Origin: a virus
Virus record (IMG/VR): IMGVR_UViG_3300049597_000151
Span: 1 to 22,764 of that record
Length of the DNA: 22,764 bases
Strand: one strand, 5' to 3'
The notes beneath the pieces were generated by a model. That model searched no databases, was not told the DNA's origin, and was given only the letters and a program-made list of their open reading frames with translations. Below are positions 1 to 22,764 of the stretch, in pieces. Every line of letters starts with the position of its first letter. Position 1 is the stretch's first letter. The translations under genes were made by a program, and so were the position numbers.

Positions 1-96
1 CAGCTATACAACGAAGCTAGAACCCAGAAGGCTTCCGCTGACATTCTTGAAGACATAAAAACCAAGGTGGCCAGTTTTGCACCCGCTACTTCATAG
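1..96 (+). CDS. C-terminal end of an unknown phage gene
   Basis: An open frame enters from the left edge in phase 1 and stops at TAG 94-96, giving the last 31 residues of a protein. The tail is hydrophilic and helical-looking (repeated Lys/Glu/Asp, then SFAPATS). It contains no motif I recognise. It overlaps the next gene by 20 bases if that gene starts at TTG 77, and lies on the same strand, so it probably belongs to the same early operon. The product cannot be named from this fragment. Confidence 0.6.
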   Translation, partial: QLYNEARTQKASADILEDIKTKVASFAPATS

Positions 97-283
97 CAGG
101 GCAATCCTTCTAGCCGCAATGAAAGAGTTAGTGGAGCTGGCCCAATTTTACGGGGACACTTACGACAGAACTAAAAGCCCGTTGGCAATGCAACACCATA
201 AATACTTTACGTTTGAAGCCGCAAGACTTAGCCAACGTTTATTGTTAGTCCAAATAGAGATTGAGGAACAAGACCTTGACTGA
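77..283 (+). CDS. Small hypothetical protein
   Basis: A 68-residue frame starts at TTG 77, preceded by AAGG at 64-67 with nine bases between. An alternative start is ATG 119 (54 residues), which has only a distant, weak ribosome site. The body is helical and moderately acidic, with no cysteine motifs, no signal peptide and no membrane segment. It overlaps the following gene by 8 bases, typical of translationally coupled phage genes. I do not recognise a family. The start codon is uncertain; the reading frame itself is likely real because it fills the space between two other frames without a gap. Confidence 0.5.
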   Translation: MHPLLHSRAILLAAMKELVELAQFYGDTYDRTKSPLAMQHHKYFTFEAARLSQRLLLVQIEIEEQDLD

Positions 284-632
284 AATTAATTATCCCGCAG
301 ACGTAAACAGGGAACTAGCTTTGTTACGTTCCCAAGCTGAATTGGGCATAAACATTTTGGCAGACAAAGAACGGGAGCTAGTAAAGCTATCCTTGGAAGC
401 TGACCGAATTGAAGCACTCACCTATTTAGAAGCTGGCGGGTCAATCCCAGAACGTAACGCCGTGGCCAAGCTTAAAGCCTTAGACGCTAAAGAAGCGGCG
501 GAGCTTTGCAAGGTGGAAGTCAATCGCATAAAGCTAAAACTAAAGCACTTGTCTGAATCACAAATGAACATCCAGACACAATCTAAGATGATAGAACTAC
601 AATGGAGAACCGCGGGCATAAAAGAAAACTAA
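276..632 (+). CDS. Hypothetical helical (coiled-coil-like) protein
   Basis: This 118-residue protein starts at TTG 276, with GAGG at 263-266 as ribosome site; an in-frame TTG at 261 is the alternative. It is Leu/Ala/Glu/Lys rich with long helical stretches (a regular pattern of LRSQAELG, ADKERELVKLSLEADRIE and KLKALDAKEAAEL) separated by a Gly-Gly-Ser turn near residue 55. That layout suggests an antiparallel coiled coil. Proteins of this size and style sit beside recombination and single-strand-binding genes in many phages, but I see no diagnostic residue. It overlaps the next gene by one base (TAATG). Confidence 0.6.
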   Translation: MTEINYPADVNRELALLRSQAELGINILADKERELVKLSLEADRIEALTYLEAGGSIPERNAVAKLKALDAKEAAELCKVEVNRIKLKLKHLSESQMNIQTQSKMIELQWRTAGIKEN

Positions 633-856
633 TGTTCACAATAAACGAAACTTGTTCATGCGGGGCTAACTTGAAGATTAGCGGACGTGTTGAATTAGTC
701 CTACGCGAACTAAAGCTTTGGCGTAAGCGCCACGTTTGTTTAAAGCAAGACAATGACGACACCGTGACCAGCGGAAACGCAGAAACTCAAATTGCTATTG
801 GTTTCCAAGCTGGAGAGATTCCAGCTAGACAGTATGACCCTTGGGAAGATGACTAA
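632..856 (+). CDS. Small protein with a CxC...C possible metal site
   Basis: The ATG at 632 overlaps the stop of the previous gene (TAATG), so translation is probably coupled; an upstream in-frame ATG at 602 would lie inside the previous gene. The 74-residue product has Cys9 and Cys11 in a TCSCGANLKI segment and a further Cys about 26 residues later in RKRHVC. This could be a small zinc site, although only three cysteines plus a histidine are present. The C-terminus is acidic (DPWEDD). Function unknown. It overlaps the next frame by 8 bases. Confidence 0.55.
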   Translation: MFTINETCSCGANLKISGRVELVLRELKLWRKRHVCLKQDNDDTVTSGNAETQIAIGFQAGEIPARQYDPWEDD

Positions 857-1016
857 GAAAAAACCCGCTTACCTGAAGCCCTTAGAAAAAAGTGTTTTGG
901 AAAAAATCTTGAAAATTGAAAAAAAGCCAAAAAAATGGGAAAAAGCTCAAAAAGAAGAAAATTTGGCTAAAACCGTTTTTGGCCTTTCTAGTGGCCTTAT
1001 GTTTAGCGGGGTGTAG
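849..1016 (+). CDS. Small lysine-rich protein
   Basis: The ATG at 849 lies in ATGACTAA, overlapping the previous stop by 8 bases, an arrangement seen repeatedly in this genome. The 55-residue product is very rich in Lys and Glu (residues 1-37) and ends in a neutral segment (VFGLSSGLMFSGV). The high Lys content follows from the A-rich DNA, which grows steadily toward the non-coding A-tract block. Its last 100 bases are overlapped in the +1 frame by the lipoprotein-like frame described next; at most one of the two need be functional. No family recognised. Confidence 0.4.
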   Translation: MTKKKPAYLKPLEKSVLEKILKIEKKPKKWEKAQKEENLAKTVFGLSSGLMFSGV

Positions 1017-1101
1017 CCACGGTGTTTTTAGAAACCAGCTCCATCGAAGCCCTTTGGGAAAAATGATTTACCAGTTCAAAGCTAAAAAGAAAATAATTTA
1101 A
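916..1101 (+). CDS. Possible small lipoprotein (overlapping frame, doubtful)
   Basis: A 61-residue frame from TTG 916 reads as a lipoprotein precursor: a lysine-rich n-region, the hydrophobic run LKPFLAFLVALCLAGC ending in a lipobox LAGC (lipid-bearing Cys at residue 33), then a short basic tail. Such small phage lipoproteins can block superinfection in Gram-positive hosts, but that role is only a guess. Against it: no convincing ribosome site precedes TTG 916, the n-region may simply reflect A-rich DNA, and it overlaps the gene at 849-1016. Part of the coding stretch is the first copy of a direct repeat whose second copy (1470-1531) has stop codons just upstream. Confidence 0.3.
   Translation: MKKSQKNGKKLKKKKIWLKPFLAFLVALCLAGCSHGVFRNQLHRSPLGKMIYQFKAKKKII
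995..1055 (+). repeat. Imperfect direct repeat, left copy
   Basis: This segment matches 1470-1531 in the same orientation. Over 995-1034 versus 1470-1509, I count 30 of 40 identical positions without gaps; the match continues with small gaps to the shared GAAG..CCCTT. The two copies lie about 475 bp apart and bracket the A-tract block. Confidence 0.65.
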
Positions 1102-1124
1102 AAAATGCCAAAAATGTAAAAAAC
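1100..1124 (+). repeat. 25-bp exact direct repeat, copy 1
   Basis: This 25-base stretch (A6, TGCC, A5, TGT, A6, C) is repeated exactly at 1377-1401. It shows that the A-tract block contains real long-range duplication and not merely random A-rich sequence. Confidence 0.75.
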
Positions 1125-1376
1125 CCAAAAAAATCCAAAAATGTTAGAAATCCAAAAAAACCCAAAAAAACGGGAAAATGTCAAAAAATGGAAAAAAACT
1201 AGAAAAAGTGATTTTTTGAAAAAAAACTAAAAAAACTCAAAAATAGAAAAAAATGAAAAAAAGTCCAAAAAGTGAAAAAATGATAAAAAAACCAAAAAAG
1301 TGAAAAAACCTAAAAATTTAGAAAAAAGTGAAAAATCTTATTTTTTTGAAAAAAACCCAAAAACCTGAAAATTTAG

Positions 1377-1401
1377 AAAAAATGCCAAAAATGTAAAAAA
1401 C
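1377..1401 (+). repeat. 25-bp exact direct repeat, copy 2
   Basis: Identical to 1100-1124, 277 bp downstream, near the right end of the A-tract block. Confidence 0.75.
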
Positions 1402-1469
1402 GTAAAAAAATCAAGAAATGTAAAAAACTGAAGAATTTGAAGAAAAATGATTTTCCAACTAATTTTACC

Positions 1470-1531
1470 CCTTATTCTATGCGGGTTCTAGCCCCGTGGT
1501 ATTTAGAAAACCGTGCCACCTGAAGACCCTT
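1470..1531 (+). repeat. Imperfect direct repeat, right copy
   Basis: Partner of 995-1055. It contains a short hairpin GCGGG-TTCTAGC-CCCGT that resembles a tRNA T-arm by chance. Stops lie directly upstream in the frame that would match the lipoprotein-like protein, so this copy is non-coding. From here to 1609 I see only A-rich sequence and the ribosome site of the next gene. Confidence 0.65.
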
Positions 1532-1609
1532 CAAAAAACCACCCAACTGAATAGCCCTAGAAAAATAAATAAATAAAAAAAGCCCAAAACTGAAAAAAGG
1601 CCGAAAAAG

Positions 1610-1951
1610 ATGAAAAAACAAGCTTTTGATAAATTGCTAGAGCGGGATGGTTATTGTCTCCATTGCGGAGAGACCCAAGCCGTGGCACCTAACCACCGAA
1701 TCAATCGGGGAATGGGTGGAAGTAAAAAACTAGATAATTGGGCCAATCTAGTTATTCTTTGTTCATTACTAAACGGGCAGATTGAAGCCGATACACGTTG
1801 GGCGTCCATGGCCGAATCCTACGGCTGGAAACTAAGGCGCTACCAAGACCCGCTGGCGGAACCCGTCTTTGACGCAATCGCTGGGGTTTGGTATTTGCTA
1901 GATGATAACTTAGGCCGTAAGGTAGTAGACGGAAAGGGAAACAATGACTAA
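1610..1951 (+). CDS. HNH-type endonuclease-like protein
   Basis: This 113-residue protein starts at ATG 1610 behind AAAAGG with normal spacing. It shows Cys16-x2-Cys19 (GYCLHC), then Asn28-His29-Arg30, the GMGGSKKLDN loop with Asn43/Asn46, and LVILC around residues 47-51 followed by LLNGQ. This is the layout of HNH (His-Me finger) nucleases stabilised by a zinc knuckle. The second half (WASMAESYGWKL) is typical of the phage branch often seen with replication or modification genes. It is the first gene after the A-tract block and overlaps the next by 8 bases. The DNA target is unknown; roles range from free-standing homing nuclease to a packaging or restriction activity. Confidence 0.8.
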   Translation: MKKQAFDKLLERDGYCLHCGETQAVAPNHRINRGMGGSKKLDNWANLVILCSLLNGQIEADTRWASMAESYGWKLRRYQDPLAEPVFDAIAGVWYLLDDNLGRKVVDGKGNND

Positions 1952-2147
1952 AGCAAACGAACTTTTATTACTAGCGCGGGAAGCCGAAGCGAACGCCGAA
2001 GCTGACCCAGCAAACTGGGCCATTAGGCGGACCCGTAATCTCTATGTAGATTCGCTGGCGTATACCTTGGACATCGCCTACCAGACCGCTTACGAAATGG
2101 TTCTGGACCCAGATTTTAGGTTGCCGAAAGAAAAGAAAAATAAATGA
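1944..2147 (+). CDS. Small hypothetical protein between HNH and methyltransferase
   Basis: The ATG at 1944 sits in ATGACTAA, overlapping the HNH stop, with GGAAAGGGAAA just upstream as ribosome site. The 67-residue product is helical and Ala/Glu rich at the N-terminus, with a lysine-rich C-terminus (PKEKKNK). No motif is recognised. It overlaps the methyltransferase by four bases (ATGA), so the HNH gene, this gene and the methyltransferase are probably translated as a coupled set. Confidence 0.65.
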   Translation: MTKANELLLLAREAEANAEADPANWAIRRTRNLYVDSLAYTLDIAYQTAYEMVLDPDFRLPKEKKNK

Positions 2148-3232
2148 CCTACAAAATCCACGTTGGAAACAACCTAGACGTCCTGCCCACGCTTCCAGAT
2201 AACAGCGTGGATTCCATCGTTACAGACCCGCCGTATGAACTTGGATTTATGGGTAAGAAGTGGGATTCAACTGGCATCGCCTATTCCGTGGAGCTTTGGC
2301 AGGAATGTCTTCGGGTCTTGAAACCAGGCGGTCACTTACTTGCCTTCAGCGCAACTAGAACTTACCACCGCCAAGTGGTTGCAATCGAAGACGCTGGGTT
2401 TGAAATCCGCGACATGATTAGCTGGATAAGCAACAAGACGTTCCCTAAGTCGCTAAACATAAGCAAGGCCATAGACAAGGCGGCGGGAGCAACGGAAGAC
2501 GCAAAGAAATGGGAAGGCTGGGGAACTGCACTAAAGCCAACCGTGGAACCAATCGTAATGGCACGCAAACCAGTAGAAGGCACCGTTGCGAATAACGTTT
2601 TGACTTACGGCACGGGCGGGCTAAACATTGACGCTTCCAGAATTGGAACTGACACGATAACAATAAACACGTTTGATAATGGCGCGAAACCGTTTGGTGA
2701 TGCCGTTGGTCAGCCGTTTACTTCAAGACAGCAAGAAGGGCGATGGCCCGCTAACGTCGTTTTTGATGAAGACAGCGCAGAAATCCTTAATGAACAAAGC
2801 GGAAAGACAACAAGTAAATCAGCAAAGACGGCATTGCCAGACATTAGAGGTGGCAAGTTTGGTTCTGACTACGGAAATAGGAATTTTGATTCAATCAGGG
2901 GCCATGACGATTCTGGGGGAGCTTCAAGATTTTTCTACGTTGCTAAAGCTTCCAAGAAAGATAGAAACGAAGGCTTGGAAAATCTACCCAACGCACATCC
3001 AACCGTTAAGCCAACTACTCTAATGAGCTACCTAATCAATTTGGTAACACCAGAAGGCGGAACCGTGCTTGACCCGTTTACTGGTTCTGGTTCTACTGGT
3101 AAAGCCGCCGTGCTTAATGGTTTCGATTTTATCGGTATAGAAATGACGGAAGAATACTTGCCAATTATTGAAGGCAGATTGAAACACGCAGAAAAAAAGT
3201 TCGCCGAAAAGAAAACGGAAAAACTTTTCTAA
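2144..3232 (+). CDS. DNA N6-adenine or N4-cytosine methyltransferase
   Basis: The 362-residue protein transfers a methyl group from S-adenosylmethionine to an exocyclic amino group in DNA. The catalytic motif DPPY is at residues 28-31, and the SAM-binding motif DPFTGSGSTG starts at residue 310. Catalytic-before-SAM order is that of beta-class enzymes in the N6/N4 methylase family (PF01555). Also visible are MGKKWD after the catalytic motif, a VLKPGGHLLAF strand, and HPTVKP before the SAM motif. A central insertion (about residues 130-275) probably holds the target recognition region. No partner restriction enzyme is obvious except the HNH gene two genes upstream, so it may be an orphan enzyme that protects phage DNA. 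Specificity cannot be read from sequence. Confidence 0.93.
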   Translation: MTYKIHVGNNLDVLPTLPDNSVDSIVTDPPYELGFMGKKWDSTGIAYSVELWQECLRVLKPGGHLLAFSATRTYHRQVVAIEDAGFEIRDMISWISNKTFPKSLNISKAIDKAAGATEDAKKWEGWGTALKPTVEPIVMARKPVEGTVANNVLTYGTGGLNIDASRIGTDTITINTFDNGAKPFGDAVGQPFTSRQQEGRWPANVVFDEDSAEILNEQSGKTTSKSAKTALPDIRGGKFGSDYGNRNFDSIRGHDDSGGASRFFYVAKASKKDRNEGLENLPNAHPTVKPTTLMSYLINLVTPEGGTVLDPFTGSGSTGKAAVLNGFDFIGIEMTEEYLPIIEGRLKHAEKKFAEKKTEKLF

Positions 3233-3414
3233 TGCCAAACTATGACTATGCTTGTAAAACTTGCCCGCAAACATTCACGGTCAATCGGTCAATAACAGAT
3301 AAAGAAATAGTTCCGAAATGCCTAAAATGCCAATCCTACGCAATTAGGGTTTTTGGGACACCAGCTATACAATTCAATTCACCAGGCTTTTATTCGACAG
3401 AAGGGAAAATCTGA
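3232..3414 (+). CDS. FmdB-type zinc ribbon protein
   Basis: This 60-residue protein starts at ATG 3232 (TAATG with the methyltransferase stop). It begins MPNYDYAC with Cys8-x2-Cys11 and a second knuckle Cys30-x2-Cys33, followed by RVFGTPAIQFNSPGFYST. That is the classic FmdB/putative regulatory zinc ribbon (PF09723 type), in which a single zinc is held by the two CxxC pairs. The family is widespread and functionally vague; in phages it is often found beside DNA modification or replication genes. It ends two bases before the replication-initiator start, so the two are probably co-translated. Confidence 0.9.
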   Translation: MPNYDYACKTCPQTFTVNRSITDKEIVPKCLKCQSYAIRVFGTPAIQFNSPGFYSTEGKI

Positions 3415-3415
3415 C

Positions 3416-4279
3416 ATGCCACTAATCCGCGGCCACCACTCATTTGACGACCACTTTACCCAGATACCTAACGCTTGGCTTCGGGACCCAAACTTATCCC
3501 TAGGCGCTAAAGGATTATTGGCCCAGTTGCTAAGTCATTCACCAGGTTGGGAAGTCTCCCAAGAATCACTTGCCAAAGCTAACAGAATGGGCAAGGACGC
3601 CATAAGAAAACTTATTGGGGAACTATTGGGGGCAGGCTACTTAAACCGCTCCACGGACCGCACAAGGCTGGATAAAGGGTATTTAGGTGGATACACTTAC
3701 ACAACCCAAGACCCTGACCCATCCATGGCGGGAAACCCTACGTTGGAAAACCCTACGTTGGATAATCCTACGTTGGATAATCCGCCACTTAAGAAGAACA
3801 TACTTAAAGAACAAAATACTAAAGAAGAAAATAATAAAGAAATTACGCAAAAAAGCTTTGAAGATGATTTTGGAAGATTTTGGACTATCTACCCAAGGCG
3901 GGCTGAAAAGGTAGCCGCTTATTCCGCTTTCTGCAAAGCCGTCCAGAAATACGGGCTAGAAGTGGTAATGACTGGCGTTGTGAATCTTGCAAATGACCCT
4001 AATCTTCCAGAAAAAACGTTTATCCCTTACCCAGCTAGTTGGCTAAATGCAGGGGGCTGGACTAATGACCCTTACCCAGAACGCAAGTTCACACCTGAAG
4101 AAAAGGCGGAAAGAATTGCCGCCGAAAGAAAAAAGAAAGCTTTGGCGGAACAGGAAAACACCAAACGGCTATTCGAAGAAATGGAAAAGTCGAAAGCTAA
4201 CGCGTCACCACCGCCAAAATGTAGCCACGGAAATTCGTTACTAAGTTGCTTACCGTGTCTACGCCAAATGTCTGACTAA
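3416..4279 (+). CDS. Replication initiator / replisome organiser-like protein
   Basis: I chose ATG 3416 (287 residues) over the TTG at 3353 because family members start near MPLIRG..FDDHFTQIPN and the TTG would overlap the FmdB gene. Residues 1-95 look like a winged-helix DNA-binding domain (LSLGAKGLLAQLLSHSPGW, then SQESLAKANRMGKDAIRKLIGEL). A low-complexity linker with NPTL(E/D) repeats follows, then a helical domain (FEDDFGRFWTIYPRR, YPASWLNAGGW) of the type that loads a helicase. The C-terminus has a possible zinc site, CSHG..SCLPC. The repeats are encoded by DNA iterons, as in the lambda O gene. It should recruit the replicative helicase, which is not in this window. Confidence 0.8.
   Translation: MPLIRGHHSFDDHFTQIPNAWLRDPNLSLGAKGLLAQLLSHSPGWEVSQESLAKANRMGKDAIRKLIGELLGAGYLNRSTDRTRLDKGYLGGYTYTTQDPDPSMAGNPTLENPTLDNPTLDNPPLKKNILKEQNTKEENNKEITQKSFEDDFGRFWTIYPRRAEKVAAYSAFCKAVQKYGLEVVMTGVVNLANDPNLPEKTFIPYPASWLNAGGWTNDPYPERKFTPEEKAERIAAERKKKALAEQENTKRLFEEMEKSKANASPPPKCSHGNSLLSCLPCLRQMSD
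3734..3778 (+). repeat. Three 15-bp iterons, candidate replication origin
   Basis: Three tandem 15-bp units run 3734-3748, 3749-3763 and 3764-3778, with a decayed fourth start at 3779. Each shares the core CCTACGTTGG, an imperfect dyad around ACGT. Directly downstream, 3791-3840 has 33 A and only 10 G/C among 50 bases. Iterons followed by an A+T-rich unwinding region inside the initiator gene is the architecture of the phage lambda origin. The units also encode the NPTL(E/D) peptide repeats, so they could instead be a coding linker. Confidence 0.6.
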
Positions 4280-4300
4280 GACAATAAACTAAACAAAGCG

Positions 4301-4317
4301 CCCAATAAACGATTGGG
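4301..4317. promoter_or_regulatory. Hairpin upstream of the SSB-like gene
   Basis: A perfect 6-bp stem (CCCAAT/ATTGGG) with a 5-base loop lies in the 63-base gap between the initiator and the OB-fold gene. There is no T-run after it, so it is more likely an mRNA-processing or translation-control element than a terminator. Confidence 0.4.
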
Positions 4318-4342
4318 ACCCTAAAGAAAAGAGAAAAATAAA

Positions 4343-4690
4343 ATGGCACTACAAATTGAATTCGAAGGTTTCATTCAAGACGTTAGAAATTTCGATTGGG
4401 GAACCGTTGTTGTGGTAGCCCATAACCAACGGGCTAAGTCTCCAACTGGCGAATGGGAAACCGTTGGCAAGGATTACATAGACGTTACCTTTGATGGTGT
4501 TACACCACCGAAAGAAACGCTTGTAAAAGTTAAGGGAACACTAAAGGTTTCTACTTACGCTAAAAAAGACGGTTCTACTGGGGTTGCATTAAAAGTTAGA
4601 GCTTCAGAACTTTACCCGTTCAAGCGTGGCGACGCGGTTTCTGCAACTAAAGAAATCTTGGAGCCACTAGACCCGTCGCTTCCGTTCTAA
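4343..4690 (+). CDS. OB-fold, single-stranded-DNA-binding-like protein
   Basis: The 115-residue protein starts at ATG 4343 after an A/G-rich leader. Its pattern of beta strands (IEFEGFIQDVRNF, TVVVVAHNQRAK, KDYIDVTFDG, ETLVKVKGTLKVSTY, GVALKVRASELYPF) fits an OB fold. The C-terminus ends DPSLPF, which resembles the acidic, Pro-Phe-ending tail by which SSB proteins recruit partners. Position right after the initiator and before the RusA resolvase supports a role in coating single-stranded DNA during replication or recombination. It is shorter than bacterial SSB, and true homology would need a structure or profile search. Confidence 0.6.
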   Translation: MALQIEFEGFIQDVRNFDWGTVVVVAHNQRAKSPTGEWETVGKDYIDVTFDGVTPPKETLVKVKGTLKVSTYAKKDGSTGVALKVRASELYPFKRGDAVSATKEILEPLDPSLPF

Positions 4691-4845
4691 TGATTTCGGC
4701 AATTTTTGCTTTTTCTTACGGCTTGCTAATTTTTGCGCTTGTCGGAGAAGTAGAAACTGAATCGCTTCGGATTGCAGGATTCATTGGTGCAGGCTGGATG
4801 GTGTTCGCTGGAGCAATGGCGGGCTATCAAGGTATGAATAAGTGA
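4690..4845 (+). CDS. Small two-helix membrane protein
   Basis: A 51-residue frame starts at ATG 4690 in TAATG with the previous stop and ends at TGA 4845. Two hydrophobic segments are visible: residues 1-18 (ISAIFAFSYGLLIFALVG) and about 27-47 (RIAGFIGAGWMVFAGAMAGY), joined by an acidic loop (EVETES). It overlaps the RusA gene by four bases (GTGA). The exact fit between two genes at both ends argues that it is real. Function unknown; lysis is unlikely given its place among replication genes, but a holin-like shape cannot be excluded. Confidence 0.65.
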   Translation: MISAIFAFSYGLLIFALVGEVETESLRIAGFIGAGWMVFAGAMAGYQGMNK

Positions 4846-5300
4846 ATTCACGGAAAGAACTTTATTTCACGGCTTACGGAATCCCAAGACCGCAGGGTTC
4901 CAAACGTCACGTTGGTAACGGCGTGATGATTGAAGCAAGTGACGTAAAGCCATGGCGGAAGACAATCGCTAACGCGGTGTTTGAAGCTTGGAGTCGTTCG
5001 GGCGACGAAAGGCCGTTTACGGAACCCGTAGTTGTCTGGGCGACTTTCTTTCTGCCCCGCCCCAAGTCTGTCAAGCGTTTTCTGCCGTCTGTAGCCCCCG
5101 ATTTGGACAAGCTTTGTAGGGCGCTTGGCGATGGCCTAAGCATTGATTCCGAAGCCCTTACGGATGACGCCCTTATAGTCAAATGGCATGCCGCCAAGGT
5201 CTACGCGGACGGCCACGAACCAGGCGTTTCCGTGGGAATCCGCCTTTATAACGATTTGGTAACAAACCCCAAAATGGTCCAAAATGAGTTTGACAAGTGA
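4842..5300 (+). CDS. RusA-like Holliday junction resolvase
   Basis: The 152-residue protein starts at GTG 4842, overlapping the membrane-protein stop (GTGA). RusA enzymes are dimers that cut four-way DNA junctions symmetrically, here probably to debranch replicating or recombining phage DNA before packaging. The hallmarks are present: GIPRPQGSKR (residues 13-22), WRKTI, FFLPRPKS, the metal-binding PDLDKL with Asp87 and Asp89, Asp97, and the DDA pair at 108-109 followed by an AAKVYA strand. Length is close to the roughly 120-150 residues usual for the family. A strong promoter overlaps its last codons, so a new transcript begins at its end. Confidence 0.9.
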   Translation: MNSRKELYFTAYGIPRPQGSKRHVGNGVMIEASDVKPWRKTIANAVFEAWSRSGDERPFTEPVVVWATFFLPRPKSVKRFLPSVAPDLDKLCRALGDGLSIDSEALTDDALIVKWHAAKVYADGHEPGVSVGIRLYNDLVTNPKMVQNEFDK

Positions 5301-5318
5301 TAAGGAAAGCCCCATAAT
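5290..5318 (+). promoter_or_regulatory. Strong sigma-70/sigma-A type promoter
   Basis: TTGACA at 5290-5295 is a perfect -35 box; after exactly 17 bases comes CATAAT at 5313-5318, five of six matches to the -10 consensus. The start of transcription would be near 5325. It drives the gene series beginning at 5365. It is the best promoter I can see in the window. Confidence 0.7.
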
Positions 5319-5323
5319 GGATA

Positions 5324-5345
5324 CATAAGGCAAACGGGCCTTATG
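5324..5345. promoter_or_regulatory. Perfect 8-bp inverted repeat at the predicted transcript start
   Basis: CATAAGGC (5324-5331) and GCCTTATG (5338-5345) are exact reverse complements around a 6-base loop. Lying right at the predicted +1, it could be an operator for a dimeric repressor or, in RNA, a 5' hairpin that protects the message. No T-run follows. Confidence 0.6.
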
Positions 5346-5364
5346 AAACGAAGGGAAGATTCAA

Positions 5365-5634
5365 ATGACTAAGAAGGTATTTAGCAACAAAGTAGCAAAA
5401 GCATTGGGTTGGAAGCACGGCCCAGAAGTAGCAAAAGACAAGACACTTACAGCTTCACTAAACGGATTCACTTTTATTGAAACTGAAATTGACGGTGCTT
5501 TTCACATCGGAAACTTAAAAGACTGGCAGGCAGTTGCTTTGCTAGAAGCTGGATTCATTGCCACAATCAAAATCAGGGAACCACGCTGGGCAAGCGATGA
5601 AAAAAGACCTGTAATGTTTTGGTCGGTGGCATAA
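5365..5634 (+). CDS. Hypothetical protein, first gene after the promoter
   Basis: The ATG at 5365 is preceded by GAAGGGAAG at good spacing. The 89-residue product is mixed alpha/beta (TFIETEIDGAFHIGNL, WQAVALLEAGFIATIKI) and soluble, with no cysteines and no catalytic pattern. As the first gene behind a strong promoter it may be expressed early and at high level, which in phages often marks host-takeover or anti-defence proteins; this is inference from position only. It overlaps the next gene by one base (TAATG). Confidence 0.7.
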   Translation: MTKKVFSNKVAKALGWKHGPEVAKDKTLTASLNGFTFIETEIDGAFHIGNLKDWQAVALLEAGFIATIKIREPRWASDEKRPVMFWSVA

Positions 5635-5951
5635 TGACTAACCTAACAATTCAAGCGGTATGTGGAGCGATTCGCGCAACCAAAGGAATCGAAGTAAGCG
5701 CAAAGTCTACTCGCCGCAAAAGTAGAATGGTTAGAAGTTCTGGCGTCTATGCAGAAGTTCTTCCAATCTCTAATGAAATAAGACTTAATTATTCAACCCA
5801 CGGTTATTCAACATTTGAAGAACGCGCAAAAAAAGAAATGCCGAAAGTTATTGAAACGCTAGAATCACGTGGATTCAAAGTTGTAAAGAAACTTGAAAAC
5901 ATGGGTTATGGTCAAAGGATGCGCGAAATTCTAATTGTAGAGGTTGCCTAA
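5634..5951 (+). CDS. Hypothetical basic protein
   Basis: Starting at ATG 5634 (TAATG overlap), the product has 105 residues. It is basic near residues 20-32 (STRRKSRMVRSS) and has a Tyr/Ser-rich centre (LNYSTHGYSTFEERAKK), then an amphipathic helix and a strand (GFKVVKKLENMGYGQRMREILIVEVA). It may bind nucleic acid, judging only from charge. No family recognised. It overlaps the next small gene by one base, so the four genes from 5365 form a coupled series. Confidence 0.7.
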   Translation: MTNLTIQAVCGAIRATKGIEVSAKSTRRKSRMVRSSGVYAEVLPISNEIRLNYSTHGYSTFEERAKKEMPKVIETLESRGFKVVKKLENMGYGQRMREILIVEVA

Positions 5952-6118: not shown

Positions 6119-6120
6119 CC

Positions 6121-6291: not shown

Positions 6292-6692
6292 TTCAGTTCA
6301 CCGAAGGGAAAAGAAAAAAAGTAAAAAGCACTTGTGAACGATGCGGCTATGAATGGATTCAGAACGAACGCCAGCTTTACAGGGAAACCGCGGAACTAAA
6401 ATTCTGCCGTAGTTGCAAAGCCACCGAATCTAAAAGCGTAATGCGTGACGGTTGGGTTTGTTCTCCCCACCGTGGCGAAGTGGACCTTGACACCATGACG
6501 CCACTAGACAGAAACGGCAAGCCCTACTTACCTGGAACCAGAATTTGCGGGATGCTTGACTGTATTACCAAGGCCCACATAATTACCGAAGCCCCAACAA
6601 ACAAAAAAGACGGTAAGGCGGTTTTGGCTGGAAAAGTAATCACCTATACCCAGTTTCTTGAAATCGAAAAGGCAAGAAAGGCCAAAAAATGA
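6288..6692 (+). CDS. Zinc-ribbon protein of unknown function
   Basis: The 134-residue protein starts at ATG 6288. Its N-terminal third is a zinc ribbon, CERCGYEW (CxxC near residues 16-19) paired with FCRSCK (near residues 40-43). A second Cys/His group follows (VCSPHRGEVDLDT and RICGMLDCITKAHI). The C-terminal 30 residues are a basic helix. It may bind DNA, RNA or a host protein; I cannot assign a family. It overlaps the Nmad1 gene by four bases. Confidence 0.7.
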   Translation: MIQFTEGKRKKVKSTCERCGYEWIQNERQLYRETAELKFCRSCKATESKSVMRDGWVCSPHRGEVDLDTMTPLDRNGKPYLPGTRICGMLDCITKAHIITEAPTNKKDGKAVLAGKVITYTQFLEIEKARKAKK

Positions 6693-7066
6693 GCGTTACA
6701 GACCACCCAGCTTTTACCGCAATGAAAGAAAAAGAAGAACTAGAACTAATGAGACAAGCCGCTAGGGAAGGATTAGACAATGACATGCGACTGTTCGGGG
6801 AAACGGTGCAACGATACTTCGACGATAACGCCAAGCTATTGTTGTCAAAACACAAAGACTACGGACCAAAAAACATTAGCCAATCCCCAGGTGGACCCAT
6901 TAACGGCTTGCGGGTCAGGATGCATGACAAGCTTGCCAGAATTAGCCACCTTACAGATTCAGGAAAAGCCCCCGAAAACGAAGCCTTAAGGGATTCTTTT
7001 ATTGACCTTGCAAACTACGCAATGATTGGTTTGTTAGTCTTAGATGGTGAGTGGCCTAATGAGTAG
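6689..7066 (+). CDS. Nmad1/DUF1599-like protein
   Basis: The 125-residue protein starts at ATG 6689. The core SKHKDYGPKNISQ, then GLRVRMHDKLARISHL, then NEALRDSFIDLANYAMIGLLVL matches the pattern of DUF1599, also named nucleotide modification associated domain 1 (PF07659). The family is all-helical with conserved Lys-Asp-Tyr-Gly, Arg-x3-Asp-Lys and Asp-x2-Asp residues resembling MazG/dUTPase-like nucleotide pyrophosphohydrolases. It is found in phages near nucleotide and DNA-modification genes. Here no obvious base-hypermodification gene is within view other than the methyltransferase. It overlaps the next gene by 8 bases. Confidence 0.75.
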   Translation: MSVTDHPAFTAMKEKEELELMRQAAREGLDNDMRLFGETVQRYFDDNAKLLLSKHKDYGPKNISQSPGGPINGLRVRMHDKLARISHLTDSGKAPENEALRDSFIDLANYAMIGLLVLDGEWPNE

Positions 7067-7481
7067 AGTTCAAGGATACGAACCTAGATTTGACATTGAC
7101 TTTTCTAGGGGTCTAATTGGTGAAAACCTTGTTAGTAATTTGCCCGAAGCAATCCAATCTGGCACGGTAGAAGTAAAGACAGATTACAGGGCGGAAACCA
7201 CGGGTAATTTTTACGTTGAAACTTGGCAATACGGCAAAGAAGACGAATCAGACAAAAAACAATCTGGCATAAACACCACCAAGGCAGATTCTTGGGCTTT
7301 CGTTATTCCGCAAACTGGCGCTATGTTTCTAATTAGAACAGACCACCTAAAAGCCTTAATGACCGCAAATCCCTATAGGGAAACTAGGCAACCGAAAATA
7401 AATGAAAACACAAATGCCAGCATAGGAAGATTGGTTCCAGTAATGGACATAGCGCTTCAGATGTTTACCGCAGGCAAGTAA
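7059..7481 (+). CDS. PD-(D/E)XK nuclease-like protein
   Basis: I place the start at ATG 7059 (in ATGAGTAG, overlapping the previous stop), 140 residues. The order of motifs fits the PD-(D/E)XK nuclease fold: FDIDFSRGLIGENLV with Asp13 and Glu22 in the first helix, then the strand TVEVKTD (Glu-x-Lys core), then GNFYVETW, then SGINTTKADSWAFVIP. Related phage proteins are annotated as endonuclease- or resolvase-like. With RusA upstream it may process branched or foreign DNA. The catalytic assignment is by pattern only. A short gap with GAAGGGAAA separates it from the next gene. Confidence 0.6.
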   Translation: MSRVQGYEPRFDIDFSRGLIGENLVSNLPEAIQSGTVEVKTDYRAETTGNFYVETWQYGKEDESDKKQSGINTTKADSWAFVIPQTGAMFLIRTDHLKALMTANPYRETRQPKINENTNASIGRLVPVMDIALQMFTAGK

Positions 7482-7498
7482 AAAGAAAGAAGGGAAAA

Positions 7499-13536: not shown

Positions 13537-13539
13537 ATT

Positions 13540-14947: not shown

Positions 14948-14960
14948 CATTAGGCAACCC

Positions 14961-15006: not shown

Positions 15007-15021
15007 AGCTGAAAGGCAAGT

Positions 15022-16468: not shown

Positions 16469-16469
16469 A

Positions 16470-16521: not shown

Positions 16522-16529
16522 AAAACAAA

Positions 16530-17057
16530 ATGGCACTTATCGCCGAAAACGTGGTAGTAGGAATAACAGGGGAAGTCTATGTTGGACCAACCACCGCTAC
16601 CGCCCCAACATCCAGCACTTCAACCCTTACAGGATTTAGCTCATTGGGCTATGTATCCGCAGACGGCGTTGAATTTGCGTCGGAAAAATCCACCAACCAG
16701 ATTAGAGCTTGGCAGAACGCTGACCTAGTCCGCGAAGTTATCACCGAAGGAACTGTAACTTATTCTTTCGCACTACTAGAGACAACCGAAGAAACCCTAG
16801 AACTTTACTTCGGCGCTCCATTGCTAGACGGCAAGATTGAGCTTAACCCAGTAAGCACGGGTGGCCGCAAGTCTTTCGTTATTGACATTGTAGACGGCGC
16901 AAAGGTAATTCGCCACTACGTTCCAGCGGGGGAGATTCTTTCTGTAGAAGCCCAGACAATCCAGAATGGTGAAGCCGTTTCTTACGGTGTAACAATGACC
17001 GCTTACGCTTCCGAAGGTCGCGTAGCTGACATTTTCCATTCTGAATTTGAAGCTTAA
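16530..17057 (+). CDS. Major tail protein
   Basis: The 175-residue tube subunit starts at ATG 16530 behind AAAGGAAAAC. It has the usual order: N-terminal strand with Thr/Ser-rich arm (VGPTTATAPTSSTST), GYVSADGVEFASEKSTNQIRAWQNADLVREV, which is very typical of siphovirus tube proteins, then strands to TYSFALLETTEETLELYFG. Even codon use and flanking hairpins fit high expression. Confidence 0.9.
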   Translation: MALIAENVVVGITGEVYVGPTTATAPTSSTSTLTGFSSLGYVSADGVEFASEKSTNQIRAWQNADLVREVITEGTVTYSFALLETTEETLELYFGAPLLDGKIELNPVSTGGRKSFVIDIVDGAKVIRHYVPAGEILSVEAQTIQNGEAVSYGVTMTAYASEGRVADIFHSEFEA

Positions 17058-17067
17058 ATAATAAATT

Positions 17068-17104
17068 CCTACGGGGTGGACAAAGCGGTTATCCGCCCCG
17101 TAGG
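17068..17104 (+). terminator. Long hairpin after the major tail gene
   Basis: CCTACGGGGTGGA (17068-17080) pairs with TCCGCCCCGTAGG (17092-17104): 13 pairs with one G-U, loop of 11 bases. Only TTCTTC follows, not a clean T-run, so it may act as an RNA-stabilising 3' hairpin or partial terminator. Confidence 0.6.
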
Positions 17105-17153
17105 TTCTTCAAAACCCAACCGCTAACTTACCGCTAAAAGAAAGAGCAAAAAA

Positions 17154-17414
17154 ATGACCGCGAAACTTTACACGTTTGAACACAAAAAAACCACTTATGA
17201 AATCCCGTTCTTTTCGGAATTGCCTATGGGCGCAATTCGTAAGGCTAGAAAAGCTACAGACGACATTGACAAAGCTTTCATAATCATAGAAGAAATTTTA
17301 GGCGAAAACGCCCCAGCGCTTGAAGCGCTTGATTCCATGAAGGCCGCGGAATTTCAAAAATTCCTAGAAGGCTGGACCCAAGGCGCACCGTTGGGGGAAT
17401 CCTTAGGGTCTTAG
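17154..17414 (+). CDS. Tail assembly chaperone, short form
   Basis: The 86-residue protein starts at ATG 17154. Tail assembly chaperones bind the tape measure protein and help polymerise tail tube around it. Length, acidic-helical content (DDIDKAFIIIEEILGE, LDSMKAAEFQKFLEGW) and position before the tape measure match the G protein of lambda-like systems. Most ribosomes should end here at TAG 17412-17414; a fraction shifts frame at 17393-17399. Confidence 0.88.
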   Translation: MTAKLYTFEHKKTTYEIPFFSELPMGAIRKARKATDDIDKAFIIIEEILGENAPALEALDSMKAAEFQKFLEGWTQGAPLGESLGS

Positions 17415-17776
17415 AACTTCTAAATTCCCACCCAAGGGAATTAGTTTCTGATTTTAGGACCCATTTTCAACTAAGTGTTTTTGAGCTTGGAAAATCTATT
17501 TCATGGCTAGAAGGAATTTATTTAATTTCTTCACTAATGGCAAACCCCAATTCACAATTACAAGCCGTTATTAATAATTGGAAACACCCAGTTTCTTATG
17601 AATGGATTTTACTTAGTCACATTTTTGACCTATTAGCTTCCGCGAATAGCAAGAAAAAACCAAAGCCCTACCCTACCCCGTGGCCCAATCCAAACACAAG
17701 CAGATTGAAGCCAAGTCAAGCACAAAACCGCAATGACGTGCTAGAACAACTTAGACGTATGAACCCAAAGGAATAA
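17154..17776 (+). CDS. Tail assembly chaperone, frameshifted long form
   Basis: Ribosomes that slip at 17393-17399 continue in the -1 frame for 125 more residues, about 207 in all. The added part starts ILRVLELLNSHPREL and contains FELGKSISWLEGIYLISSL, HPVSYEWILLSHIFDLLA and a Pro/Lys-rich linker; these are the usual features of the T domain of chaperones. That the homologous sequence starts before the first ATG of this frame (17537) shows the shift is used. Stop TAA 17774-17776 is one base before the tape measure start. Confidence 0.82.
17393..17399 (+). promoter_or_regulatory. -1 frameshift slippery site GGGGGAA
   Basis: In the chaperone frame the codons are GGG (17394-17396) and GAA (17397-17399), preceded by G. 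Slipping back one base keeps GGG paired and moves GAA to GGA. The downstream -1 frame is open to 17776, as expected for a G/GT-type programmed shift. Confidence 0.72.
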
Positions 17777-17777
17777 C

Positions 17778-19799
17778 ATGGCATCCAGAATTGCAGAAGC
17801 TTATGTTCAAATAGTCCCCAGAATTGACGGGGTTGCGGCTGGAATTAGTGGGCAACTTAGCACCCAAATGGCTACCGCTGGAACCGTTAGCGGAGCAAGC
17901 TTTTCAACTGGATTCAAAAACATTGTAGGACCCGCGCTTATTGCGGCAACGGCAATAGCCGCCGCCGCTATCGGTAAATTACTGACCAGTTCCGTAACAG
18001 CCGCTTCAGATTTTGCCGAAGCTGGCGCGGCGGTAAACGAAGTTTTTGGTGGAGCTTCAAAGACAATTCAAGACTTTGCAGATTCAGCTTCAACTTCATT
18101 GGGTCAGTCTTCCACTCAAGTTTTAAACGCGTCCAAGCAATTTGGTATTTATGGAAAAGCGGCTGGACTTGCAGGCGAAGAAAACGCGGCTTTTTCCATG
18201 GACTTGGTTAGGCTTGCGACAGACCTAGCATCCTTCAACAACACCAGCGTAGACGACGCGATTCTTGCCCTTGGTTCTGGGCTTCGCGGTGAAGCGGAAC
18301 CACTTCGTAGGTATGGTGTTCTACTAGACGACGCCGCACTAAAAGCCCAAGCAATGGAAATGGGAATCTACGACGGAAACGGCGCTTTAACACAACAGCA
18401 AAAAGTCCTAGCCGCAAACTCCGCAATTTTTGCCCAGACAATAACCCAACAGGGTGACTTTGAAAGAACATCCGACGGGCTTGCAAATCAGCAAAGAATT
18501 TTAGCGGCACAATTTTCCAACATTCAAAAACTTCTAGGTGACTTTTTACTTCCTACCTTTACAAGCATTGCCCAAGTTCTTACTAAGTCAGTTATGCCAG
18601 CCTTTTCCGCTTTTTTAATTTCGGTAAGGGACAACGGACTAGCTCAAGCATTACAAGAAACGTTTGCAAAAATTTCTTCTATGCGACAAGACTTTATGGA
18701 TGCAACCTTGAAAGCGCTTCCAGGAATCATTGACGCAATCGTTGGCTTTATTCCAGTTCTTGTTCAAAACTGGGGCATAATGGTTATTAGCCTAATTAAT
18801 GCCTTGACAGCCGCGCTTCCACAACTTATTGCTGGAGCAGTTCAATTCTTTACGGCCTTGGTAAATGCTTTAATAATAGTTATTCCAATAGTAATAACAG
18901 CAATTACCGAAGCCATTCCAACTATCATTGACGCCCTAGTTAAAACACTTCCAAGTTTAATTGAAGGCGCAATTAAGTTATTTACTGGGCTAATTGAAGG
19001 TCTGCTAAAAATACTTCCAGTTTTAATACAAGCCGTTGTTGAACTTATCCCCGTAATAGTTAACGCGTTAATTTCAGTTCTTCCAGAACTTGTCAAGGGC
19101 GCTATTCAGCTTTTCTTGGGAATCGTTCAAGGTCTAATTGAAGCCCTGCCCGAAATTATTACGGCGGTTGTAGAAGCCGTCCCGTTACTTATAGATGCCC
19201 TTGTGGAGCAAATTCCATTATTGGTAGATGGAGCAATGGACCTATTCTTAGGAATCATTGATGGTTTAATTTTGGCTTTGCCTGACATTATTTCAGCAAT
19301 CATAGATAACATGCCAAAGATAATTGGCGCAATTATCGGGGCAATTCCGCAATTTGTAAGCGCAGGTTTTCAGTTAATCGGCGGACTAATTAGTGGTATT
19401 CTTGGAGCTTTCCCAAAGCTAGTCAGCACAATTGTTGAAGGTATTGGCAAGGCTATTGATGCGGGAAAGAAAGCCCTTGGCATTAAGTCACCTTCTAGGG
19501 TGTTCATGGAAATTGGTAGTAACGTAATGTCTGGAATGACATTGGGAATTGAAAAGAATTCTAAAAACCCAGTTTCAGCAATTACTGACATGACTAAAAA
19601 ACTTACTAGAGCGGGAAGCGGGTCAGCTTCTTACGGTATGTTGCCGTCTTTAGTTTCTCCACAATCAAGCTTTGGGGATTCTTCAACTTCTAACACGGGG
19701 CAGACAATAAACTACTATGCCGCGCCTAACCAGTCGCTTGATGCAGAACAAGCTTTGCTTCAGGCCGTAAAGAGAGCTAGGGTTATAACAGGTTGGTAA
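17778..19799 (+). CDS. Tape measure protein
   Basis: The 673-residue protein starts at ATG 17778 with AAAGGAA upstream. It sets tail length and is ejected with DNA. The N-terminus EAYVQIVPRIDGVAAGISGQL is typical; a central domain (about 60-290) precedes a hydrophobic repeat region (about 313-540); the C-terminus has SPSRVFMEIGSNVMSGMTLGIE, a common motif of these proteins. At about 0.15 nm per residue a tail near 100 nm is predicted, shorter than in many actinobacteriophages. It overlaps the next gene by seven bases. Confidence 0.93.
   Translation: MASRIAEAYVQIVPRIDGVAAGISGQLSTQMATAGTVSGASFSTGFKNIVGPALIAATAIAAAAIGKLLTSSVTAASDFAEAGAAVNEVFGGASKTIQDFADSASTSLGQSSTQVLNASKQFGIYGKAAGLAGEENAAFSMDLVRLATDLASFNNTSVDDAILALGSGLRGEAEPLRRYGVLLDDAALKAQAMEMGIYDGNGALTQQQKVLAANSAIFAQTITQQGDFERTSDGLANQQRILAAQFSNIQKLLGDFLLPTFTSIAQVLTKSVMPAFSAFLISVRDNGLAQALQETFAKISSMRQDFMDATLKALPGIIDAIVGFIPVLVQNWGIMVISLINALTAALPQLIAGAVQFFTALVNALIIVIPIVITAITEAIPTIIDALVKTLPSLIEGAIKLFTGLIEGLLKILPVLIQAVVELIPVIVNALISVLPELVKGAIQLFLGIVQGLIEALPEIITAVVEAVPLLIDALVEQIPLLVDGAMDLFLGIIDGLILALPDIISAIIDNMPKIIGAIIGAIPQFVSAGFQLIGGLISGILGAFPKLVSTIVEGIGKAIDAGKKALGIKSPSRVFMEIGSNVMSGMTLGIEKNSKNPVSAITDMTKKLTRAGSGSASYGMLPSLVSPQSSFGDSSTSNTGQTINYYAAPNQSLDAEQALLQAVKRARVITGW
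18714..19390 (+). repeat. Hydrophobic repeats in the tape measure gene
   Basis: About five diverged units of roughly 38 residues follow the scheme LPxLIxGAxxLFxGLIxGLL..LPxIIxAVVExIPxIIxAL. They alternate Pro-marked turns and hydrophobic helices, suggesting membrane insertion during DNA entry. The number of units probably sets tail length. Confidence 0.7.
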
Positions 19800-20656
19800 A
19801 CATAAGTTTTAGCATCGTTGGAAACAACAACGACGAAATTTCATTAGACGGTCCAGACTACGTTTTGGAAACTGGCGCAACTGGTTTTGGTATACCCCAG
19901 CCCGAAGTTCGCATTGACCCAAGCGCTGGAAATGGTGGCAAGTTCAAATTCCTAAAGCGTGGCGTTAGGGTTCTGGACTTGCCCATTGCTATCTTAAGCA
20001 ACAACCAAGAAAACTTAGAACCTAAGCTTAGAAGACTTGCTAGGGCAATGGCTTCAGACTTTACACTAAAAGCGACTTACGCAACTGGTGAAATCTGGTC
20101 TATCGTTCTGTATTTAGACGGCGGGGCGGAAACCACATTTGGCGAAGACGCCAACAAGTATTTTGCTAAATGGGTTCTTAACGCTAGAGCGCCACAACCT
20201 TTTTGGGTAAACGCTACAGCCACAACCTTTAGCGTGCAGGCCGAAGAAGTAGAACGTGGTCTTCTAGGTGTTTCAGTTGGCCAGCGTTCACTTAGCCAAT
20301 TACAAGTTAGTTCTGGGCAAGCCCTTGGAACTATTCTGGTAACTAACGCAGGCGACGTTGAAACCCCAGTTTTCTGGCGTATAGACGGCCCAGCAAGCTC
20401 CGTAGAAGTTGCCTTTAATGGAACTGGTTTTAGCTACGAAGATGATTTGCTAACTGGTGAATCTATTTTGATAAACACCGAACTTGGAACCGTGCTAACG
20501 CAGACGGGCGCTAACGCTTACAGCGGACTTGGCCCAGCCCCGAAGTTATTTGACTTGCCCGCTGGAAACAGTATTATTAACATTACCGCTACAGGCGCAG
20601 ACGAAAACACAAAGATTAGCGGTTCATTCAACCTAAGAAGGGAAGTCCTTCACTAA
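19793..20656 (+). CDS. Distal tail (Dit-like) protein
   Basis: The 287-residue protein begins at TTG 19793, overlapping the tape measure stop. The N-terminal half (SLDGPDYVLETGATGFGIP, GGKFKFLKRGVRVLDLPIAIL, then ARAMASDFTLKATYATGE) is the pattern of the siphovirus tail-tip family. Dit forms a hexamer that joins tube to baseplate. The start lacks a strong ribosome site, so coupling to the upstream gene is likely. Confidence 0.8.
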   Translation: MVNISFSIVGNNNDEISLDGPDYVLETGATGFGIPQPEVRIDPSAGNGGKFKFLKRGVRVLDLPIAILSNNQENLEPKLRRLARAMASDFTLKATYATGEIWSIVLYLDGGAETTFGEDANKYFAKWVLNARAPQPFWVNATATTFSVQAEEVERGLLGVSVGQRSLSQLQVSSGQALGTILVTNAGDVETPVFWRIDGPASSVEVAFNGTGFSYEDDLLTGESILINTELGTVLTQTGANAYSGLGPAPKLFDLPAGNSIINITATGADENTKISGSFNLRREVLH

Positions 20657-22635
20657 TGCAAGTTGCTGACTTAACCGTTGAAGTTCGCAATAGTTCGCTA
20701 GAGCGTGTTGCCCAGATTACCGAACAAGACCTAGTTGGCTTCACGGTAGTTTTGAGATTCAACAACGTTGGTTCTTGGAAAGCTACATTGCCAGCGGATA
20801 GCCTAGCGGCTGAAGCGCTTAGGCAACCAGGTGCAGGCGTAATTGTTACAGGCCCCGAAGGTGTTATTTTTACGGGTCCAACTACTTCGGCTAAGAAGGT
20901 CCAGACCGCAGAAGACCCAGACGGTATTTGGGAAATCGAAGGCGTGGACGATTCTATTCTTCTACGCGAAAGACTTGCTTACCCAGACCCAAGCGAACCA
21001 GACGCGGGGCTTCAGTCTGTAGCTTATGACGAAATTACCGCGCCAGCTTCAACGGTTCTTTATCACTACGTTAGTGCTAACCTAGGCCCTACCGCGCCGA
21101 TAGAAAGAAAAATAGCTAACTTAGTTCTAGCGCCAGACACCGAACTTGGTTCAACCATTACAGGAAAGCTACGCTTCGAAGTTCTTGGTTCCGCTTTCAA
21201 AAACCTAGTGGCCCCAGACGGGCTAGGCTTTGACATAAAGCAACAAGACGGCGATTTAGTTTTTGCGGTTTACGAACCAGTAGACAGGTCAGGAGACATT
21301 CGGCTAGACGTCGAAAATAACAGGCTTAGCCTTTCTGAATACACTTACCAGAACCCAAGGGCCACCCGTGCCATTGTTGCAGGCCAAGGCCAAGGCGACC
21401 AGCGCGAAATCCTAGAAGTTGCAACTACGGAATCTACCGCATCCGAAACAGCTTGGGGCCGTAGGATTGAAGTCTTCAAAGACCAGCGAGACGCAGAAGA
21501 CGCAGGCTTACTAGAGCAAGCTGGTTTTGAGCTATTAGCCAAAGACGGAAAGACCCTAGAAGGAATTTCAGTCAGACCATCCGACGATGGACTTATGCGT
21601 TACGGATACGATTGGGACCTAGGCGACAAAGTTAGCGTTGTAGCTAATGAAGCGGTAGCAGTTGCGACAGTTACCGAAGTTGCCATTTCAATTACCGAAT
21701 CAGGCGTTTACGTTTTAGCAACCGTTGGAGAACCCGACACAGCTTCAGACGAAACCCGCGGGGCTTCAGTTCAAAGCAATCAAGAAGAACGTATTTCTAA
21801 CCTAGAACGCAACGAACCAACTGGCGGGGGCGGTGGTGGCGGGGGCGGTGGCTCAATAGGCTATTACGGTTCTTTCTATGACATGACAGACCAACCGCTT
21901 GCTTCAATTACAGCCGCACAACCCATTGCTATTGGTCAAACCGCTGAAGCTAACGGCGTAAGTATCGCAAGCGGAAACAGAATCACTTTTCCAAATGCTG
22001 GAACTTACAGCTTGACCTTCTCAATTCAAATTACGAACTCAACTACACAAACCGTAAAATCTGTATTTTGGGTGAAGAAAAATGGCGTTGATTACGCAGA
22101 TTCGTCAACCGAACTTGATTTGCAACCCCGTAAGGGCGCAGGTAATCCCAACCGTCAAGTCTTGACAATCAATTACGTGGCAACCGCCGCGGCAGGAGAT
22201 TACGTTCAAGTTTTTTGGGCTGGGGATAATACTGGACTAACAGTTGAAGCTTTGCCCGCTGGAACTTCTCCAGTTTACCCAGCCGTTCCGTCTATTATTC
22301 TTACGGCAACCCAAGTTGGAAACAGCGGGTTGCACGTTTCCCCAGACGCTCCCGAATCTACTGGTGTTCTTTGGTTAGATACAGACGAACCTTCAAGTAT
22401 TCCAATCCCACCTGGCGGAACTAGCGGCCAAGTATTAGCAAAACTTAGTAACAATGACTACGATACAGAATGGAAAGATGGCGGGGGAACTTTCGCCATC
22501 CAGCTAAACGAACAAAGCATAACCGCAAACTATTCAATCCCTTCAGGTTTTAATGGTGTAAGCGCTGGGCCAATTACAATCGCCAGCGGTGTTACCGTTA
22601 CAATTCCTACTGGGTCTTCTTGGAGCATCGTTTAA
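20656..22635 (+). CDS. Gp37-like tail protein with C1q-like receptor module
   Basis: The 659-residue protein starts in TAATG. Residues 1 to about 365 look like the ReqiPepy6 Gp37-like tail family (VADLTVEVRNSSLERVAQI, NNVGSWKATLPADS, then LRFEVLGSAFKNLVAPDGLGF). A short heptad stretch (QEERISNLERNE) and a run of ten glycines (390-399) lead to an all-beta module (about 400-560; GSFYDMTDQPLASITAAQPI, FPNAGTYSLTFSIQI, YVQVFWAGDNTGL) that resembles C1q/TNF-like jelly rolls. The tail has LWLDTDEP, PPGGTSGQVLAKLSNNDYDTEW and a TIASGVTVTIPTGS end typical of fibre tips. It should bind the host surface. Confidence 0.8.
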   Translation: MQVADLTVEVRNSSLERVAQITEQDLVGFTVVLRFNNVGSWKATLPADSLAAEALRQPGAGVIVTGPEGVIFTGPTTSAKKVQTAEDPDGIWEIEGVDDSILLRERLAYPDPSEPDAGLQSVAYDEITAPASTVLYHYVSANLGPTAPIERKIANLVLAPDTELGSTITGKLRFEVLGSAFKNLVAPDGLGFDIKQQDGDLVFAVYEPVDRSGDIRLDVENNRLSLSEYTYQNPRATRAIVAGQGQGDQREILEVATTESTASETAWGRRIEVFKDQRDAEDAGLLEQAGFELLAKDGKTLEGISVRPSDDGLMRYGYDWDLGDKVSVVANEAVAVATVTEVAISITESGVYVLATVGEPDTASDETRGASVQSNQEERISNLERNEPTGGGGGGGGGGSIGYYGSFYDMTDQPLASITAAQPIAIGQTAEANGVSIASGNRITFPNAGTYSLTFSIQITNSTTQTVKSVFWVKKNGVDYADSSTELDLQPRKGAGNPNRQVLTINYVATAAAGDYVQVFWAGDNTGLTVEALPAGTSPVYPAVPSIILTATQVGNSGLHVSPDAPESTGVLWLDTDEPSSIPIPPGGTSGQVLAKLSNNDYDTEWKDGGGTFAIQLNEQSITANYSIPSGFNGVSAGPITIASGVTVTIPTGSSWSIV

Positions 22636-22764
22636 ATGAGTGAACTAACCGTTGGGCAATTACGCGGGCTAACAGTAAATAGCAACGTGATTAGCGTTCC
22701 GTCTGGACACACACTTTACGCGCCTGGTCACGTTATTCAGGTTGTAAACGTAGACAACGTGGCT
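22636..22764 (+). CDS. N-terminus of a fibre-like tail protein (cut by window edge)
   Basis: ATG 22636 immediately follows the TAA of the previous gene; 43 residues are visible. The motif NVISVPSGHTLYAPGHVIQVVNV is common in tail fibre proteins of aquatic phages, where a strand-rich tail follows. It is probably a second receptor-binding or accessory fibre protein. No further assignment is possible. Confidence 0.65.
   Translation, partial: MSELTVGQLRGLTVNSNVISVPSGHTLYAPGHVIQVVNVDNVA

Follow-up and report, generated by a model that had tools for sequence, protein, structure and literature searches.

The DNA analyzed here, a stretch of 22,764 nucleotides from an IMG/VR virus record (IMGVR_UViG_3300049597_000151, positions 1 to 22,764; hereafter the window), belongs to a tailed phage: the contig carries genes for the large terminase, the portal and an HK97-type capsid. 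Comparison of its gene order with that of a related genome, G007, revealed that the contig is truncated in its left (replication) half and is not a whole genome. On the plus strand, at 7044..7481, lies a gene for a 145-residue protein that we describe as a candidate orphan GATC-specific endonuclease of the PD-(D/E)XK type, on the basis of a match to the family phrog_13596, a sequence motif and an association of the gene with loss of the word GATC. Its start is overlapped by the gene directly 5′ of it (6689..7066, plus strand), which encodes a DUF1599 or "nucleotide modification associated domain 1" protein (PF07659, E = 1.6e-6; phrog_1485). No methyltransferase gene lies beside the candidate nuclease gene in the window; a PF01555 gene is found about 4 kb away.

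An earlier note, made from the letters of this DNA alone, had claimed that GATC, GTAC and CCGG are absent from the window and that other palindromes are frequent, and counting bore out both statements. Each of the three words occurs 0 times across all 22,764 bases (G+C 45.6%), against about 40-80 expected. Specifically, base composition predicts 85, 85 and 62 occurrences of GATC, GTAC and CCGG, and the 4-mer count against Markov models that the note had proposed as a check placed all three far below expectation, at 41, 53 and 77 for a first-order and 42, 48 and 79 for a maximal-order model. Shuffles of synonymous codons that kept the proteins and the codon usage gave 45, 50 and 61 expected sites, and the deficit was present in all three reading frames; codon bias is therefore not the cause. 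The list of words in the note was incomplete. Also nearly absent (observed/expected, as for all such pairs below) are ATAT (1/49), GCAGC (GCWGC, 1/44), CACTG (CASTG, 0/29), CTSAG (0/27) and GASTC (1/22), and the 3-mer GAG/CTC is reduced to 30% of expectation (157/519), with GAGG/CCTC at 7/129 and CGAG/CTCG at 9/122. This last shortfall is seen in all frames, including off-frame positions over which codon choice has no hold. The word-depleted region thus spans the entire window (1..22764, no strand).

The 7044-7481 protein matches the phrog_13596 profile over residues 15-137 (E = 2.9e-20), a family listed in PHROGs as of unknown function; a Pfam search matched no family, and no sequence relative was found in the Protein Data Bank (PDB). 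The phrog_13596 protein contains a PD-(D/E)XK-type motif, a conserved acidic residue followed by (D/E)-x-K. In an alignment of 24 sequences, E27 and E43-x-K45 were invariant and form the putative active site; the other invariant residues of the family are D17, D19, G23, S74 and G75, and TGN and SG follow E43-x-K45. A good AlphaFold2 model (pLDDT 86, pTM 0.77) gave as its best structural matches, all weak (Z below 8), I-Ssp6803I (2ost, Z 6.0), the N-terminal domain of Eco15I (8q5o, 5.8) and D212 (2w8m, 5.5), which are nucleases of the PD-(D/E)XK superfamily; MutH matched with a Z of 2.8. The motif, together with a consistent predicted structure, supports assignment to the PD-(D/E)XK fold but does not prove it. 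Only one match to the family, weak and prophage-like, was obtained among 794 sampled bacterial genomes, and the family is therefore in the main a phage family. In a prophage-like bacterial contig, L498, the homolog sits inside a GATC-free stretch (0/12.9).

Homologs of the gene are spread over actinophage-like, pelagiphage and roseophage contigs that have no other relationship; of 15 IMG/VR contigs with a homolog, 14 were entirely without GATC. More distant homologs (28-38% identity), which match phrog_13596 too, occur in cultured Pelagibacter phages, in Roseobacter phage CRP-143 and in phage C72C1. Ten complete phage genomes bearing such a homolog, with G+C contents from 32% to 52%, each contain 0 GATC where 59-115 are expected. 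A profile search yielded 63 loci with a homolog, at 62 of which GATC was either 0 or under 10% of expectation (two carriers, L415 and L457, retain one or two sites); loci without a homolog were GATC-free or nearly so in 49 of 309 cases. When 560 gene clusters were screened against about 700 words in 372 de-duplicated contigs, the top pair was the phrog_13596 cluster and GATC (55/55 vs 42/317; P = 2e-39 without correction for relatedness of the contigs). We also examined a T7-like clade, defined by DNA polymerase and comprising 95 contigs with nine gene changes on the tree, in which 46 of 46 contigs with the gene were GATC-free vs 11 of 49 without it. Of eight independent pairs on this tree, five to six agreed with the association and none was opposite to it (median P = 0.03), and no other tested word was significant in this test. 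The phylogenetically corrected evidence is modest in number and wholly one-sided.

Phages isolated on a single strain divide in the same manner. On Pelagibacter HTCC1062, the gene-bearing HTVC011P, HTVC019P and HTVC031P contain 0 GATC, and HTVC010P, which lacks the gene, contains 56 in 16 kb vs 32 expected. On FZCC0023, GATC is at 0/103 in the gene-bearing CRP-143 and at 34/49, 51/66, 62/53 and 24/62 in the gene-free CRP-113, CRP-114, CRP-118 and CRP-125, respectively. On neither strain, then, was GATC avoided regardless of gene content, and because phages of the same strain split by the gene, host restriction is not the reason for GATC absence in these phages. The pelagiphage homologs are flanked by the genes for DNA polymerase and 5′-3′ exonuclease, near endonuclease I, with no methyltransferase annotated beside them. 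The homolog is gp18 (AXH71639) in HTVC031P and gp22 in CRP-143; in HTVC011P (KC465900), at L490:5745-6119, it is unannotated.

The sole exception among the 63 homolog loci, L319 (G+C 71%), bears the gene and is rich in GATC (96/63). There, a gene for an MT-A70 adenine methyltransferase (L319:8333-9849) directly adjoins the nuclease homolog, as in a restriction-modification pair. A further contrast involves replacement of the gene. L471, with the gene, has GATC at 0/19, and its nearest sister, L467, has instead a T5orf172/GIY-YIG protein (L467:3590-4207) at the position shared with the gene of its relatives and a count of 2/13; L469, with the same replacement (L469:4223-4849), has 9/36. A T5orf172/GIY-YIG protein in the nuclease position suggests exchange of nucleases at one locus.

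Taken together, these data make it probable that a genome without GATC is the mark of an orphan endonuclease, encoded by the phage itself (here at 7044-7481) with no partner methyltransferase, that recognizes GATC. That GATC would be the site cleaved by this protein we infer from the absence of the word from the genomes that carry it.

The family of the window shows how rapidly such words come and go. About 50 relatives are present in IMG/VR, with terminase identities of 73-83%, and each relative has a different set of absent words. G004, for example, is without AGCT, CCGG, GCGC, CGCG, GATC, TTAA, ATAT, CCWGG, GASTC and others, and G008 is without AGCT, TTAA, GGCC, CCGG, GTAC and CATG and has hardly any GAG (23/532). 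The depleted 4-mers of the family are nearly all palindromes, which supports selection of the restriction type. G012, whose terminase places it as sister to the window, lacks the 7044-7481 gene, and GATC is abundant in its two pieces (168/62 and 141/63). The word sets therefore turn over quickly within the family. When aligned genes were compared, 72 of 133 GATC positions of G012 were found changed synonymously in the window, so that removal of words from the window appears to have been largely synonymous. GATC stands at two to three times its expectation in several gene-free relatives (L001, L003, L010 and L049/L083). WhiB genes, present in 16 of 30 family records, indicate actinobacterial hosts for the family, though no species; a genome scan for prophages that might identify the host gave distant terminases only.

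Several observations weigh against a GATC nuclease at 7044-7481. No other member of the window family has the gene, and its link to GATC therefore depends on phages from outside the family. GATC is absent as well from the gene-free relatives G003, G004, G007 and G014 and from a few gene-free T7-like contigs, and other causes of GATC absence therefore exist. Other words are equally absent from the window with no gene assigned to them, and GGACC is missing from 24 of 24 testable gene-bearing T7-like contigs vs 17 of 43, although the pairs were not significant for this word. The structural matches are weak, the best Z of 6.0 being below 8, and Foldseek returned no match to the model at E under 0.001.

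The earlier note had attributed the missing words to long selection by host restriction systems. Selection acting on 4-bp sites of the restriction type is supported; a host enzyme as the source of the GATC loss is not, the selecting enzyme looking phage-encoded. That host systems of the MboI, RsaI and HpaII types forced the phage to shed these sites in order to escape is unlikely as an explanation of GATC, although for GTAC, CCGG and other words it is still a strong contender: most depleted words of the family are palindromes of the kind that type II systems recognize, fewer words are lost in the integrase-bearing members G001, G010 and G011, and phages are known to escape by losing sites, with total or near-total loss in roughly one virus in ten (PMC6286503) and further cases among haloviruses (PMC7230728). 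For GATC, however, phages of the same strain differ by the gene, the gene predicts absence across very different kinds of host, and SAR11, the host of many carrier phages, has no reported restriction-modification systems (PMC9516812). Biased base composition or codon use, or mutational pressure, has a negligible chance of accounting for the zeros. The window does have a strong A-rich strand bias, but the shuffles retain 45-61 sites against the observed 0, a deficit common to every frame, the words are present in close relatives and the site losses are mostly synonymous.

The gene might instead merely mark phages of hosts that attack GATC; its product could, for instance, be a nuclease of repair or anti-restriction, and the association would then be indirect. 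An association alone cannot show activity, and presence of the gene is clustered on the T7-like tree (nine changes among 95 contigs). We nevertheless consider this improbable, given the same-host contrasts, the return of GATC where the gene was replaced, the methyltransferase that adjoins the homolog in the exceptional L319 and the conserved PD-(D/E)XK-type residues. A methylation-dependent, DpnI-like enzyme, which cuts G6mATC, would likewise require GATC-free phages, GATC being avoided since Dam of the host would mark it. However, the known carrier hosts, Pelagibacter and the Roseobacter group, methylate GANTC and not GATC, and the GATC-rich L319, with its adjoining adenine methyltransferase, points to protection by methylation; such an enzyme is thus quite improbable here. 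GANTC methylation in Pelagibacter is described in PMC9516812.

An endonuclease for GATC at 7044-7481 does not explain the absence of GTAC, CCGG and ATAT or the depletion of GAG, which have a restriction-type look and for which host systems or other phage nucleases are candidates. Screens of genes against GTAC, CCGG and GAG gave nothing convincing, and associations with AGCT and GAATC in the screen were set aside because they look clade-confounded. Pelagiphages and roseophages (L400-L409, L490-L496) also lack GGWCC, CCWGG, GANTC or GGCC in varying combinations, and the GANTC depletion of pelagiphages has been remarked on as unexplained (PMC9516812). Avoidance of GAG/CTC out of frame is shared by the window with G008 and G007 (L165-L168), the last at 89/690, and GGAG is wholly absent from G008; at 3 bp, GAG/CTC is shorter than any common restriction site, which is unusual for restriction. 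PDDEXK_14 (PF24579) proteins are encoded only in these two strongest GAG avoiders (G007, L017:603-1061; G008, L167:1237-1704). As the established cause of GAG avoidance they were rejected, since G007 and G008 are sisters and a search of viral contigs yielded no additional carriers. In the window, the contig breaks off immediately short of the position expected for this gene. An HNH-like protein (phrog_2340 endonuclease) is present in three GATC-free relatives that lack the nuclease of the window (G004, L159:947-1408; G003, G003:18798-19259; and G014), and could be a second GATC nuclease; it is confined to one clade, and its INPHARED homologs match part of the protein. We therefore retain as candidates PDDEXK_14 for GAG in G007 and G008 and the HNH protein for GATC in G003, G004 and G014. 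Elsewhere in G004 (L159:1774-3377), a ParB-like gene adjoins a PAPS-reductase-like gene, and phage C72C1 also encodes a PAPS reductase, together with a DNA methyltransferase, in the neighborhood of its homolog of the candidate GATC nuclease.

The PF01555 gene of the window (2144..3232, plus strand; E = 3e-34) encodes a putative N6/N4 DNA methyltransferase whose nearest solved relatives are CcrM and others. It is missing in most relatives of the window, with no homolog in the close ones, and is unneeded for protection of GATC because the window has none. It was rejected as a driver of word loss, no single absent word being common to the contigs that carry it.

The candidate resembles type II restriction endonucleases of the MboI/Sau3AI type in being a small protein with PD-(D/E)XK-type residues and an apparent 4-bp palindromic target, GATC. 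It differs in being phage-encoded and almost never found in bacterial genomes, and in nearly always lacking a cognate methyltransferase, protection coming from the lack of sites; a methyltransferase beside the endonuclease, as in type II restriction-modification, is encountered only in L319. The restriction-modification enzymes of chloroviruses (PBCV-1) likewise include endonucleases of viral origin that cut at specific sites and are believed to break down the DNA of the host, but chloroviruses protect their own DNA by methylation, whereas in phages with the candidate the site has been removed. Placement of the pelagiphage gene beside polymerase and exonuclease recalls the T4 and T7 nucleases (EndoII/DenB; gp3 endonuclease I and gp6 exonuclease), which break down the host chromosome. 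T4 discriminates host from self by base modification, and carriers of the candidate would do so by an absent word. Viral nucleases for which methylation or base modification provides the protection are known; among open-licence papers, we found no description of a phage nuclease protected by the absence of its site. Complete absence of one or several palindromes is a feature shared with phage restriction-site avoidance and the HF1-group haloviruses, where it is ascribed to host systems, such avoidance being a well-established response to hosts (PMC6286503; PMC7230728); here, in contrast, the absence of GATC tracks a phage gene.

We propose that the nuclease is tolerable only in a genome purged of GATC, mostly by synonymous changes, or, in one distant case, together with an adenine methyltransferase. 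The gene could be carried without a methyltransferase because the phage has no GATC, and specificity for GATC would be needed whichever came first, site loss or gain of the gene. The enzyme would cut unmodified host DNA, which we infer to be its target, probably fragmenting the chromosome so that its nucleotides can be recycled, or competing DNA, or both; a position by polymerase and exonuclease, near endonuclease I in pelagiphages, fits host DNA breakdown. Phage DNA would be spared for want of sites, self and non-self being told apart by the missing word.

Missing restriction sites in phages are read as scars of host defense, and here a missing site tracks a gene of the phage. More tentatively, exchangeable orphan site-specific nucleases could be common in phages, with self marked by purging of the target, and the absent words of the window family, which number as many as a dozen or so in one genome besides GAG/CTC, would then record present and past phage nucleases and not only those of hosts. 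The finding proposes a function for an unnamed gene in pelagiphages, whose hosts are among the most abundant bacteria of the sea, and a simple self/non-self rule, no site and no cut, that operates without DNA modification. Absent words would thereby offer a way to predict the targets of uncharacterized phage nucleases, and the rule may help to account for the avoidance of such sites by phages of SAR11, a group with no reported restriction systems.

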